A stretch of 64,000 nucleotides of DNA, taken from the NCBI RefSeq assembly GCF_041260155.1, contig NC_091947.1:32559528-32623527 (forward strand), in the 5' to 3' direction. The notes under the pieces are model-generated. The model made no database searches. It was not told where the DNA came from and saw only the letters and a program-made list of their open reading frames with translations. Below are positions 389-61,278 of the stretch, in pieces. The DNA is from Ptychodera flava (taxonomy: Eukaryota; Hemichordata; Enteropneusta; Ptychoderidae). Every line of letters starts with the position of its first letter. Within the stretch, counting starts at the first letter, position 1. The translations under genes were made by a program, and so were the position numbers.

Positions 389-477
389 TTGTAACACACC
401 TCATCCGCAGTCTGTGTTCTAATTCGCCAATTGACAGTCACGTGGGATGCGTTCTTTTTGTGCTGATCCACGTAAAC

Positions 478-552
478 GACGTCATCAGGCATCATTTGTC
501 GGAACTGTTGCCTGCCAGGCATCAGTTCCGAAAAATGATGCCCGCTGACGTC
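478..552. repeat. Upstream palindrome in C1
   Basis: Arms of about 37 bases run from GACGTCATCAGGCATCAT to its inverted partner ending GCTGACGTC, centred near 515 on CCTGCCAGG. It sits about 40 bases before the ATG at 594, where a promoter would be expected. A comparable palindrome next to an ACGTCATCAG motif precedes the coding part of the element at 3613-5138. The ACGTCA core looks like a CRE/ATF-type site, but a regulatory role is inference. Confidence 0.65.
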
Positions 553-593
553 AAAAAACATTGGCGCATGCGCGAACTGGAATGTAAATAAAG

Positions 594-848
594 ATGCCGT
601 CTGCGGACGAGCAAAACGATAGTCGAGAAATTTCTCGGTTTATCCTACTTTCTGAAGAAGAACTGAATGCTCTGGTTTCAAACAAGGACTCGAAACGAAC
701 GAAGACGATAATCAAAGGTGCATTGAACGTTTTGCAGAAGTATTGCGACCCTGTCGGCAAAAACTTTTTCTTGCTGAACCACTCCAACATATTACATCAT
801 ATAGCTTACATGCGACAACTTTTGTGTATGGTACGTTCTTATGTATGA
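594..848 (+). pseudogene. N-terminal fragment of a Crypton-type tyrosine recombinase
   Basis: This 84-codon open frame starts at ATG 594 and ends in a stop. Residues 13-50 follow the pattern seen at the start of KIAA1958/DUF3504-like proteins: SRFILLSEEELNAL, then a basic stretch with SKRTKTIIKGALNVLQKYC. This is the helical core-binding (SAM-like) end of the recombinase. The catalytic domain with R, K, HxxR and Y is not encoded nearby; the element turns into inverted repeat and palindrome about 5 bases after the stop. It may be the first exon of a lost longer gene. Family call rests on motif recognition only. Confidence 0.55.
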
Positions 849-871
849 CTACGGATGAGGTGTGTTACAAA

Positions 872-1056
872 ACACATATTGACTGGCCATGAGGGCAACA
901 GCGTACGTCTTTAACCCCTCGGGCCTGTGAGTCACCCCAAAAACAGACTGTTTCCCTCGGCCTACGGCCTCGGGAAACAGTCTGTTTTTGGGGGTGACTC
1001 ACAGTCCCTCGGGGTACAGACGTATGCTGTTGCCCTCATGGCCAGTCAATATGTGT
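872..1056. repeat. 185-base palindrome with CCTACGG apex (C1)
   Basis: The left arm from ACACATATTGACTGGCCATG is matched by the right arm ending CATGGCCAGTCAATATGTGT. The centre is GGCCTACGGCC at 959-969. The inner arms (about 925-1005) are almost perfect; the outer arms carry a few mismatches and small indels. Inner and outer parts are separated on both sides by CCCTCGGG-like joints (near 917 and 1009). As single-stranded DNA or RNA it would fold into one long hairpin. Confidence 0.9.
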
Positions 1057-1118
1057 ATACTGTCATCAGGTTCGCTTTGTGCCCCTCACTTGCTTTTTTC
1101 GACAGTTCTGAGCGCGAG

Positions 1119-58404: not shown

Positions 58405-58504
58405 NNNNNNNNNNNNNNNNNNNNNNNNNNNNNNNNNNNNNNNNNNNNNNNNNNNNNNNNNNNNNNNNNNNNNNNNNNNNNNNNNNNNNNNNNNNNNNNN
58501 NNNN
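58405..58504. other. Assembly gap (100 N)
   Basis: Exactly 100 N, the conventional length for a gap of unknown size. It cuts the LINE that starts on its right side. Confidence 0.99.
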
Positions 58505-59870
58505 TTGGCTATGTAACATTAGGTATTTTTGTTGATTTGAAAAAGCCTTTGACACTATAGATCATGATATCCTTCTTCACAAACTACATCATTATGGAGT
58601 GCGAGGTCCATCACTAAAGTATTTCATAGTTATTTAACAAATCGTAATCAATTTGTAATTGTCAATGGTAAATCTTCTTGTTACAGGCAAATCAAATGTG
58701 GTGTACCGCAGGGTTCCATTCTGGGTCCGACTTATTCTTGGTATATATTAACGATATTTGTAATTCAACAGACTATTTTAATTGTAGACTTTTTGCAGAT
58801 GATACAAATATTTTTAAATCTCTACGTACCCAGAATGTAATCTTACTCAAATTAACGCTAAATTTAACGAAATTATCAGTTGGTGTATGGCCAACAAACT
58901 CACAGTCAACGTTGACAAAACCAATTATATGATCATAAAGACACCACAGCGAAACACCACATTTGAAGGAAATCTGTCAATTGGGAATGATACAATAGAA
59001 CAAGTTTCTTGTGCAAGCTATTTAGGAGTTACAATAGATTCATCTTTGTCATGGAAATATCATATACGAAAGGTCATTGAAGTAATTACACCCAAAATTG
59101 GCATCATTACCGACTAAGACACTATGTTCCAAAATCCATTCTCATTCAACTATATAATGCTTTTATCTTACCTCATATAATGTACTGTTTGGAAATCTGG
59201 GGAAACACTTTTTCCAGCTATTTAGAGCCAATTTTTCGCCTTCAGAAACGGATTGTTCGCTCAATTACCTTTTCTCATTTCATTGCTCATTCCGAACCTC
59301 TGTTTTACAAACTGAATATTTTAGATATCTACAAACTGAGTAAATATTGTACTTGTATGTTTGTTTATGATTTGAAACATAACAATCTTCCTCATACAGT
59401 TGAACACTATTTTGAGATTCCAAAGCACTCGTATCCAACACGATTAACACAAGTTGAAAATTTTCGTATTCCAGGCTCAAATTTGACAATTTCACAACAT
59501 ACATTAGGTATGCAGCTGTGAAACACTGGAATTCGCTGCCTGACTATCTCAAACATTGTCAAGTAGACAAGTTTTCAAGTCTGCATTGAAACATCACTTA
59601 CTGAATTTACATTAAATCTGTGTTTGTTTCTATCCTCCATCACACTTAAGCTTGTACGAATAGTTATTAGTATACTCACGGGCCATGAACTCGACTAGTC
59701 CTTTTAGACTATTTTCATGGCCCCCACCAGATTTACAATATTGCCAATGTTCTTTTCTTTTCTTTGACTTTGTACAATTTCAGTAATACACAGTTTTCTG
59801 ATAATTTTCATTATTGTACATACTGTGAAGCATCTGGTGAAATAAAGCATTCATTCATTCATTCATTCAA
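58505..59870 (+). mobile_element. LINE (non-LTR retrotransposon), 3' part
   Basis: Reverse transcriptase pieces are legible in several frames: [24 protein letters not shown] at 58530, [11 protein letters not shown] at 58690, LFADDTN (catalytic FADD) near 58790, then ASYLGVTIDSSLSWKYHI (58887-59117) and the C-terminal LPHIMYCLEIWGNTF to the stop at 59521. The 3' end is a (CATT)n tail at 59850-59868. The layout fits the Jockey/CR1/L2 side of LINEs. Several frame changes and the gap on the left make it defective. Confidence 0.88.
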
Positions 59871-60445
59871 AATCTGACATTGTCGATTTGTAGCTGGAAC
59901 AGATGACACAGATGACAACAAGATGAACCATTACTATCATAATTATACTTTATTTTAGGTCAACGAAGACCATATCTAACAAGCAAAACAAGCAAAACAA
60001 CATAAATAATTTTACACACCAAAAATCCGCTTACACATGATGATTCTAAAGTGAGTCCAAAAGGATGAATGTAAAAAAGCGTCAGAATCAATGCAACTAC
60101 GAATTAAAGCATTCGTGCTCCCAAATAGATGTGCGCTAAAGTTAAAAAGCGACTTGCGCTGAAGTGATTGAAGGCTTCCAAACTGAATCTTCCCAATAAC
60201 ATACATGAGATTGCTGCAATAATCCGGCCGAAACGTCATACATGTAAATAAGTGAGCCAGTTTTCCCGTATTGGGTTTGTCCAACAAGTGACGGATCTTT
60301 TCACTTCTACCTAGAAAAGAACCATTCCAGGACTGCAGATGTGACTGATGTGGTCGTACATCGAGCTATCTTGATTCAGTACCATACAGAGATTGCGAAC
60401 TATAACGAACGAGGCATTATCAAACTCGCCATTTATGTATTATGA
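59871..60445. other. Intergenic stretch, nothing assigned
   Basis: A 91-codon minus-strand frame (60287-60012) has no recognisable domain and no supporting context. Confidence 0.4.
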
Positions 60446-60589
60446 GGTTTTCCCACGATATCAGCGCTTGGTTGGGACGTATTGCCACGAGTGAGGGTGC
60501 GAGCTCACACGAGTCGAAGAAGAGTGTGATGTGGCGCGCACCCTCACGAGTGGCAATACGTCCCAAGCGCTGATATCGTTGGGATAACC
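60446..60589. repeat. 144-base palindrome beside an inverted-repeat element
   Basis: GGTTTTCCCACGATATCAGC...CACGAGTGAGGGTGCG pairs with CGCACCCTCACGAGTG...GCTGATATCGTTGGGATAACC. The centre (AGCTCACACGAGTCGAAGAAG) is less regular than in the other palindromes. It ends where the next inverted-repeat element begins. Confidence 0.92.
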
Positions 60590-60590
60590 G

Positions 60591-61278
60591 ATTTATCATA
60601 TGCCCATGACCGTATATTTATGTAAAAGGTAATTAAAAATAAAGAAATTTTATTAGTTTTTGTCAGTCTTTCGAAGGGGCTATATTTTTATATTCTGCCG
60701 CTGGTCTGAGCGCATTGATACATGTTTGTTTACAACAGCTGATCAAGTCGTCGATCGCATCGTGTTGAGTGTATACAGTCTAAATAGGATTATTTCAGCG
60801 CAATTTACCGCAGTTCAGAAAAGGAATGGAGCCAATTTACTTATTCTGGTCACCGTGCCGGTGTTCTGGTGGATAATTATTACACGGACAATATTGTAAG
60901 TTTGAATTCACTTTATTAACTCTTGCTGAAACATTGCTGACGTGAACAGGAACGACGAAGTAGCGCGAAATACAACAGATTGTAAACATCAACTTTTAAT
61001 TTTCTACAACAACCTGTCCTGTAACTCTCTTTAGATCTGAAATAAAGGAACGTTAAATTCATATGTACTAGTAATATGTTTCGTTTTATATTGGTAAATT
61101 TTGATTGAAGTGAAAAAGATGGATTTGATCGTTAAATGCAAGATGAACATCATACCATCAAAATCGGAAATAAACAACAATTGATGACGTATAACGTGCC
61201 GTATCAGACTGATGTTTTACGTTCCACGTCACGACGCGTCAGAGGAGACACGGATACGGTCATGGGTATATGATAAAT
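60591..61278 (-). mobile_element. Inverted-repeat element next to the 60446 palindrome
   Basis: ATTTATCATATGCCCATGAC (60591-60615) and its inverse, ending TATGATAAAT at 61278, differ at one base in 25. The TTATCATATG start is also the left end of the Crypton-like insertion at 3613. Read on the minus strand the order is repeat, promoter-like sequence with CACGTC and GACGTATAACG, repeat, then palindrome, as in C1. No recombinase piece is recognised. Confidence 0.65.

Follow-up and report, generated by a model that had tools for sequence, protein, structure and literature searches.

We analyzed a window of 64,000 nt from Ptychodera flava (NC_091947.1), which is the whole stretch of DNA considered here and the one to which all copy-number statements are confined. 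The window contains insertions in which a piece resembling the N-terminus of a recombinase is followed closely by a long palindrome. A sequence-only reading had claimed four such recombinase pieces (here F1 to F4), a palindrome close downstream of each, and an architecture that ties a 5' recombinase piece to a terminal palindrome. The elements with F1, F2 and F4 are referred to as E1, E2 and E4, the palindrome beside F3 as E3, and an element on the minus strand as E60 (Table 1).

Table 1. Features of the recombinase-associated palindromic elements in the window; offsets are counted from the left end of the element.
Feature	Position	Strand	Remarks
Element E1 (A, body with F1, A', P/P')	389..1056	+	24-bp inverted pair, 185-bp palindrome; ends inferred
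A, left terminus of E1	389..412	+	23/24 complementary to 847-870; E 1.1e-4 in window
ACGTCATCA box of E1	479..487	+	+91
F1, N-terminal recombinase-like fragment	594..845	+	open frame; resembles F4
A' of E1	847..870	+	1 nt before P; score 43, null maximum 35
Terminal palindrome of E1	872..1056	+	GTA tip and two C[GA/GA]G loops, antisense strand
Element E2, 1526-bp insertion with F2 and palindrome	3612..5137	+	three empty sites
ACGTCATCA box of E2	3689..3697	+	+78
F2, recombinase N-terminal domain and start of DUF3504	4339..5022	+	Pfam profile match
Palindrome of E2, inner part of both arms	5022..5086	+	GTA tip, antisense strand
Outer right arm of E2, no matching left arm	5087..5137	+	aligns to E60 right end
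Empty sites for E2	50262/50263, 54356/54357, 8748/8749		comparison of duplicates
F3, claimed N-terminal fragment (unconfirmed)	40060..40209 (about)	+	
Palindrome P3 (E3)	40468..40562	+	GGA tip and C[GA/GA]G loop, antisense strand
Element E4, 598-bp insertion with F4 and terminal palindrome	51903..52500	+	empty site; ends within a few bases (A/T runs)
A, left terminus of E4	51903..51912	+	9/10 complementary to 52297-52306 in register
F4, N-terminal recombinase-like fragment in its frame	52031..52183	+	resembles F1
A' of E4	52297..52306	+	directly before P
Terminal palindrome of E4	52307..52500	+	GTA tip, sense strand
Empty site for E4	6802..6803		duplicated copy
Element E60 (A, body, A', palindrome)	60446..61278	-	inverted pair adjoining palindrome; right end homologous to E2
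A, left terminus of E60	61254..61278	-	24/25 complementary to 60591-60615
ACGTCATCA box of E60	61182..61190	-	+89
A' of E60	60591..60615	-	1 nt before P; score 45, null maximum 35
Terminal palindrome of E60	60446..60589	-	C[GA/GA]G loop, antisense strand
Palindrome of the 26.7-kb unit	26732-26878		GAA tip (minus strand); within 377-bp tandem unit; second copy 27108-27256

Among the four claimed recombinase N-termini, F2 gave a profile match below the curated cut-off, F1 and F4 resembled each other, and F3 was not confirmed. F2 matched the DUF3504 profile of Pfam (E 1.1e-5) over profile positions 3-79 of 162 with 26.0 bits, under the curated 29.7; its match to Phage_int_SAM_1 was weak (E 0.17). 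Recombinase profile searches with Pfam gave no match for F1 and F4, which share 33% identity over 33 amino acids (E 0.035 against the six-frame translation of the window). F3 had no match to the DUF3504 profile and matched F1 only at E 1.2-2.4, and a two-sequence hidden Markov model (HMM) of F1 and F4 placed it at rank 17 (E 7.4). F2 was absent among the best 27 of the 42 matches to this HMM. According to the homology and profile searches, the recombinase copies in the window are truncated. A relationship of the fragments to KIAA1958, as drawn in the sequence-only reading, is putative. The frames of F4 and F1 both start with MPSA, and a 21-bp tandem duplication (51969-52010) surrounds the likely start codon of F4.

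An ungapped hairpin scan of the window returned 16 rows, of which 5 fall in a 38-bp satellite at 35.6-36.2 kb and 11 elsewhere; the same scan on three Markov-1 control sequences returned none. Gapped self-alignment stretched the palindromes beside F1 and F4 to the limits given in Table 1, and the palindrome beside F3 spans about 40468-40562. The claim of a palindrome close downstream of each fragment held in all four cases, at 14-229 bp: from the end of the fragment (set by eye) to the start of the next palindrome the distances were 27, 14, 229 and 47 bp. For a random point, the chance of a palindrome start within 270 bp downstream is 0.039, and the chance of four such cases out of four is about 2e-6, a figure for which both the distance limit and the fragment list were picked after the data were seen.

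The window holds other palindromes as well, which would be in line with the palindrome being an independent fold-back miniature inverted-repeat transposable element that came to lie beside recombinase fragments by chance. The insertion borders speak to this. Comparison of the window with itself revealed a segmental duplication, the two diverged copies of which span 1432-9034 and 45486-54659; parts of it recur at 8399-9610 and about 54007-54978. This duplication supplies empty sites for E2 and E4. The three copies free of E2 all diverge from the E2 copy after the same base. Because the empty sites span both fragment and palindrome, the two constitute one insertion in E4 and in E2, and an independent palindromic element is rejected for both. 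Taking into account also that A' and P (see below) are contiguous and homologous in E1 and E4, we give a chance neighborhood next to no probability. The right border of E4 falls at the outer end of the palindrome, as closely as the A/T runs allow it to be placed. The E4 junctions show a possible 3-nt AAA repeat, located within an A-run, while the E2 junctions show no repeat and the loss of about one base. The duplicates also differ by a 3.4-kb insertion (46512-49894) with an imperfect flanking repeat of ~9-11 bp (TTTACA.TGTA) and palindromes at 47263-47413 and 47870-48173.

E1, E4 and E60 have the layout A-body-A'-P-tip-P' in common. Here A' repeats the left end of the element in reverse complement and precedes P with a gap of 1 nt (E1), 0 nt (E4) or 1 nt (E60). 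In E1 and E60, the complementarity between the flank of the palindrome and the left end was above that at all 1496 null positions. None of five control palindromes had an A'-type flank at p 0.05, and the left flanks of the 26.7-kb and 27.1-kb palindrome copies gave p 0.048 in both cases. For E4, 9/10 bp pairing in register at independently set ends has P 0.00135, including register slack.

A and A' could also be ordinary terminal inverted repeats (TIRs) of a TIR or fold-back DNA transposon that captured 5' recombinase pieces in the style of pack-type elements, the palindrome being an accessory. Such a capture would agree with the A/A' pairs bracketing the body in E1 and E60, with the lack of a convincing recombinase piece in E60, and with the 22.6-27.4 kb unit, which consists of 47-bp inverted ends and a palindrome and has no recognised recombinase piece. 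We nevertheless consider it unlikely, as the E4 palindrome lies outside A' yet within the insertion, E2 has no target-site duplication, and the recombinase-like piece is always 5' in E1, E2 and E4, which span two families.

These families emerged from an alignment of right ends in 30 pairwise comparisons with 60 shuffles each. Four of the 30 comparisons beat their shuffles, including E1 with E4 (score 56, null maximum 36) and E2 with E60 (score 57, null maximum 40), pointing to two families, E1/E4 and E2/E60, with one layout. E2 has neither A' nor the outer left arm of the palindrome. Its left arm ends where the coding homology ends and its outer right arm is retained and aligns to E60, as expected if the junction between coding sequence and palindrome were a deletion scar; such a scar would account for the missing A' and outer left arm. 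The ACGTCATCA box occurs 9 times in the window compared to 0.65 expected occurrences and a maximum of 3 in 100 shuffles. Three boxes are located in E1, E2 and E60 (Table 1), four in the 22.6-27.4 kb unit, and two elsewhere. E4 contains only ACGTCA in place of the box, at +128.

In a four-arm alignment of E1 and E4, the arms agree to 92% and 89% within an element and to 46-52% between elements. Grouping by element was seen in 31 columns and by either alternative in 0; 37 columns were invariant and 16 of other kinds. The arms were either copied from each other after the families diverged or arose separately. In the E2/E60 set, 8 columns grouped by element and 1 across elements, 17 were invariant and 28 of other kinds; this mixed set is too broken to add much. 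Counts of compensatory changes were also made. From E1 to E4, both bases differ in 14 pairs, of which 8 can still form, and a change of one base alone breaks another 14 pairs; from E2 to E60, the corresponding figures are 1 of 2 and 8. We prefer the four-arm comparison because the two-row compensatory counts lean on the alignment.

The hairpin tips follow a common rule. On the antisense strand, the tip is a GNA triloop closed by C-G, with GTA in E1 and E2 and GGA in E3; the 26.7-kb unit has a GAA triloop on its minus strand. The strict tip motif is present 3 times in the window (E1, E2 and E3, with arms of 22, 11 and 6), and with arms of at least 5 it had a mean of 0 in 200 Markov controls. 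Tandem sheared G.A pairs favor the context 5'-Y-GA-R. In seven element hairpins, 7 of 9 two-by-two internal loops are C[GA/GA]G on the folded strand, or 6 of 8 without the tandem copy T26b; in five control hairpins, none of 4 such loops was GA/GA. The antisense strand had the more stable predicted fold in all four whole elements and in five of six hairpin stretches; the exception was E3, and for the 26.7-kb unit the minus strand was counted as antisense. A GNA loop on at least two G-C pairs is described as an extraordinarily stable DNA mini-hairpin (PMC4686876). The tip is not exclusive to the four fragment-adjacent palindromes, because the same kind of tip occurs in both copies of the 26.7-kb unit palindrome, beside which the searches revealed no recombinase fragment long enough to be useful. 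E1 (478-552) and E2 (3647-3694) each have a second palindrome close to the left end, in both cases without a GNA tip.

Two other functions of the palindrome have to be weighed against these observations. The hairpin might act as RNA, be it as a structured 3' end, as a source of double-stranded RNA for silencing, or as a transcription terminator. Long stems fold on both strands, and tandem GA mismatches can stabilise RNA as well. However, most of the GA/GA loops are found on the antisense strand of the gene, the adjacency of A' and P and the end of the insertion at P' would be left unexplained, and an Rfam scan of the window yielded no family at its gathering score, although the latter is weak evidence. 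As the tip is in addition a loop described as extraordinarily stable for DNA (PMC4686876), we regard an RNA role as rather improbable.

Alternatively, the palindrome might be a double-stranded site for recombination or telomere resolution, similar to telRL, with the tip as crossover core. Protelomerases are grouped with tyrosine recombinases, and the arms are kept alike within elements. There is also a proposal, in a report on an algal virus, of a telRL-like palindrome as telomere resolvase target (PMC13236599). The telRL site of protelomerases has a symmetric palindromic core that is cut with a 6-nt stagger. In contrast, the tips of E1, E2 and E3 would form a mismatched and asymmetric core, and the E4 tip is paired up to its 3-nt loop. 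Moreover, such a site would give A' no role, and we judge this explanation very improbable.

A role for A' is suggested by the predicted folding of whole strands. In minimum-energy folds of single-stranded DNA (ssDNA), the termini of E1, E4 and E60 meet on a splint formed by A' and P, whichever strand is folded. The ends adjoin exactly in E1, where bases 482 and 484 are the partners of the first and the last base, respectively, and in E60 (pairs 1-688 and 833-690). In E4 they come within two bases of each other (pairs 3-402 and 598-405). The termini of E2 were not brought together in its ssDNA fold.

We compared these properties with known systems. The elements may resemble Cryptons in a putative DUF3504-type recombinase (F2 only, under the Pfam curated cut-off) and in a layout that fits derivatives keeping both ends. 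Non-autonomous Crypton derivatives are described as keeping 5' and 3' ends, for example 438 bp and 260 bp in CryptonI-1N1_RPro, and the same survey reports that terminal repeats were not found in animal Cryptons, the groups of which include CryptonA and CryptonI (PMC3212892). Unlike those animal Cryptons, the elements of the window have an A/A' pair and a terminal palindrome. In DIRS1-like elements, adjoining internal regions near the 3' end are reported to be complementary to both termini and are proposed to bring the ends into a circle, and there is no target-site duplication (PMC3266345). The likeness, namely internal regions complementary to the termini that adjoin near the 3' end, is strong in E1 and E60 and weak in E4. 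Unlike in DIRS1, the right-hand pair here forms a hairpin whose loop is 3 nt long, and A' and P are 0-1 nt apart, whereas the DIRS1 regions overlap on a 3-bp circular junction. No reverse transcriptase or RNase H was detected in the pieces scanned with Pfam, which did not cover the whole window.

For the attC sites of integrons, the bottom strand is described as folding into a hairpin that is recombined by the integrase, with structure conserved more than sequence (PMC2727003). This provides a precedent for a tyrosine recombinase that acts on a folded single strand. Unlike in attC, the hairpin here forms the terminus of an element, and its mismatches are of the symmetric GA/GA kind. The hairpin near the 3' end and the absence of a target-site duplication are also reminiscent of Helitrons, which have 5'-TC and CTRR-3' ends and insert between A and T. 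Unlike theirs, the palindromes here are 65-194 bp long and reach or approach the end of the element. Helitron ends were not present: E4 starts with TC and ends with TTATTATTT rather than CTRR, and E2 reads TTATC...CTAAG, with CTAA one base inside the end and an insertion site that is not between A and T.

On balance, we consider it somewhat more probable than the opposite (roughly 0.55) that the elements are non-autonomous, internally deleted Crypton-like tyrosine-recombinase elements that kept both ends. The label draws on E2, on the right end common to E2 and E60, on the common box and tip and on the resemblance of F1 and F4 to each other; it reads Crypton-like rather than CryptonA because of the A/A' pair and the terminal palindrome. 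The architecture claimed for the window is supported in that E4 and E2 are single insertions carrying both parts, but not as a complete functional unit, and the pieces are better read as internal-deletion derivatives. The inverted A' copy, the common tip, the ACGTCATCA box and the empty sites are new compared to the sequence-only reading.

Internal deletion would have spared A, the box and the first part of the recombinase gene at the left end, as well as A' and P-tip-P' at the right end. We propose that N-terminus and palindrome recur together because both ends are needed to move. The mobile form may pass through ssDNA, probably the antisense strand, the hairpin of which would be stabilised by the GNA loop and the tandem G.A mismatches. 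On the A'P splint the ends would be joined to give a circle, in the manner proposed for DIRS elements; this circle would be inserted by a recombinase provided in trans. Copying from arm to arm during this cycle would keep the arms alike while the families diverge. The intermediate (ssDNA or circle), its strand and the role of the enzyme are what we infer.

A more specific proposal, which we put forward tentatively and with clearly less confidence than the Crypton-like assignment itself, is that animal Crypton-like elements move via ssDNA, with an antisense strand that folds itself on the A'P splint and has a DNA-specific tip. The adjoined ends would then be sealed or recombined by the tyrosine recombinase on folded ssDNA, making the elements a eukaryotic counterpart that unites DIRS splinting with attC-type recognition. 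No report of such a terminal architecture in animal Cryptons was found in the literature searched, which did not cover Repbase.

Several observations weigh against the reading as Crypton-like derivatives. With respect to the recombinase, none of the elements seen in the window is full-length and has a complete catalytic domain, and F2 alone has a recombinase-family profile match, yet its element has neither A' nor the splinted fold. F3 is unconfirmed, and E60 is without a convincing recombinase piece, the best tblastn match of its body to F1 (61122-60985) having an E of 3.1. With respect to the ends, no A' was found beside the palindromes of E2 and E3, and no A in E3 either; the A/A' pair of E4 amounts to 9/10 bp, with p 0.32 in an unconstrained test; and the junctions of E4 and E2 follow no single rule. 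Because the arms of E1 and E4 are only 46-52% identical, the homology of the two elements rests on blocks. The other two right-end comparisons that beat their shuffles were E1 with E4 on the opposite strand (37 versus 36), as expected of a palindrome, and E4 with E60 on the opposite strand (35 versus 34), which is probably chance. As for the hairpins, the internal loops are not independent, since the tips may share descent. In the predicted structures, the E4 tip has the opposite orientation, no tip mismatch and an AA/GA stem loop, the E60 tip is open, and E3 folds about equally on both strands. Finally, the same tip is present in the 26.7-27.4 kb unit, where the layout is different.

That unit is part of a larger arrangement at 22593-27417, which consists of tandem 2-kb units (22595-24643 and 24644-26663) followed by two 377-bp units with the palindromes. 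A sequence of 45-47 bp with the ACGTCATCA box is found there inverted at both sides, running into an ATG context. The satellite noted above (35622-36204) holds a 28-bp palindrome in each 38-bp unit, and a run of 100 N at 58405-58504 marks an assembly gap.

Pattern scans of databases and structure comparisons yielded candidates that were rejected. The E1 tip pattern matched three IMG/VR contigs, none with a hairpin arm of more than 4 bp past the motif; the open reading frames of one of them appeared phage-like by eye. An F2 pattern matched 21 stretches in IMG/VR, none of them a relative according to tblastn, and a degenerate pattern for the conserved DUF3504 stretch had no match in this viral database. 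Without its last codon, the latter pattern gave five matches in the prokaryotic GTDB genomes, for which the best tblastn results with F2 were at chance level (lowest E 0.064). Comparison of F2 with solved structures gave three matches, none credible (lowest E 0.049), and a single-sequence AlphaFold model of F2 was not used (predicted local distance difference test score, pLDDT, of 36). The IMG/VR and GTDB results have no bearing on the finding.

The literature consulted leaves it open by what means animal Cryptons recognise their ends, and the one survey in it reports no terminal repeats for them. If the left end, the right end and the splint were defined, annotators could find element boundaries and families more easily, and a search for circles or folded single strands would put the mobile form to the test. 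If true, the proposal would also suggest a mechanistic bridge between Cryptons, which are described as DNA transposons, and the DIRS retrotransposons.

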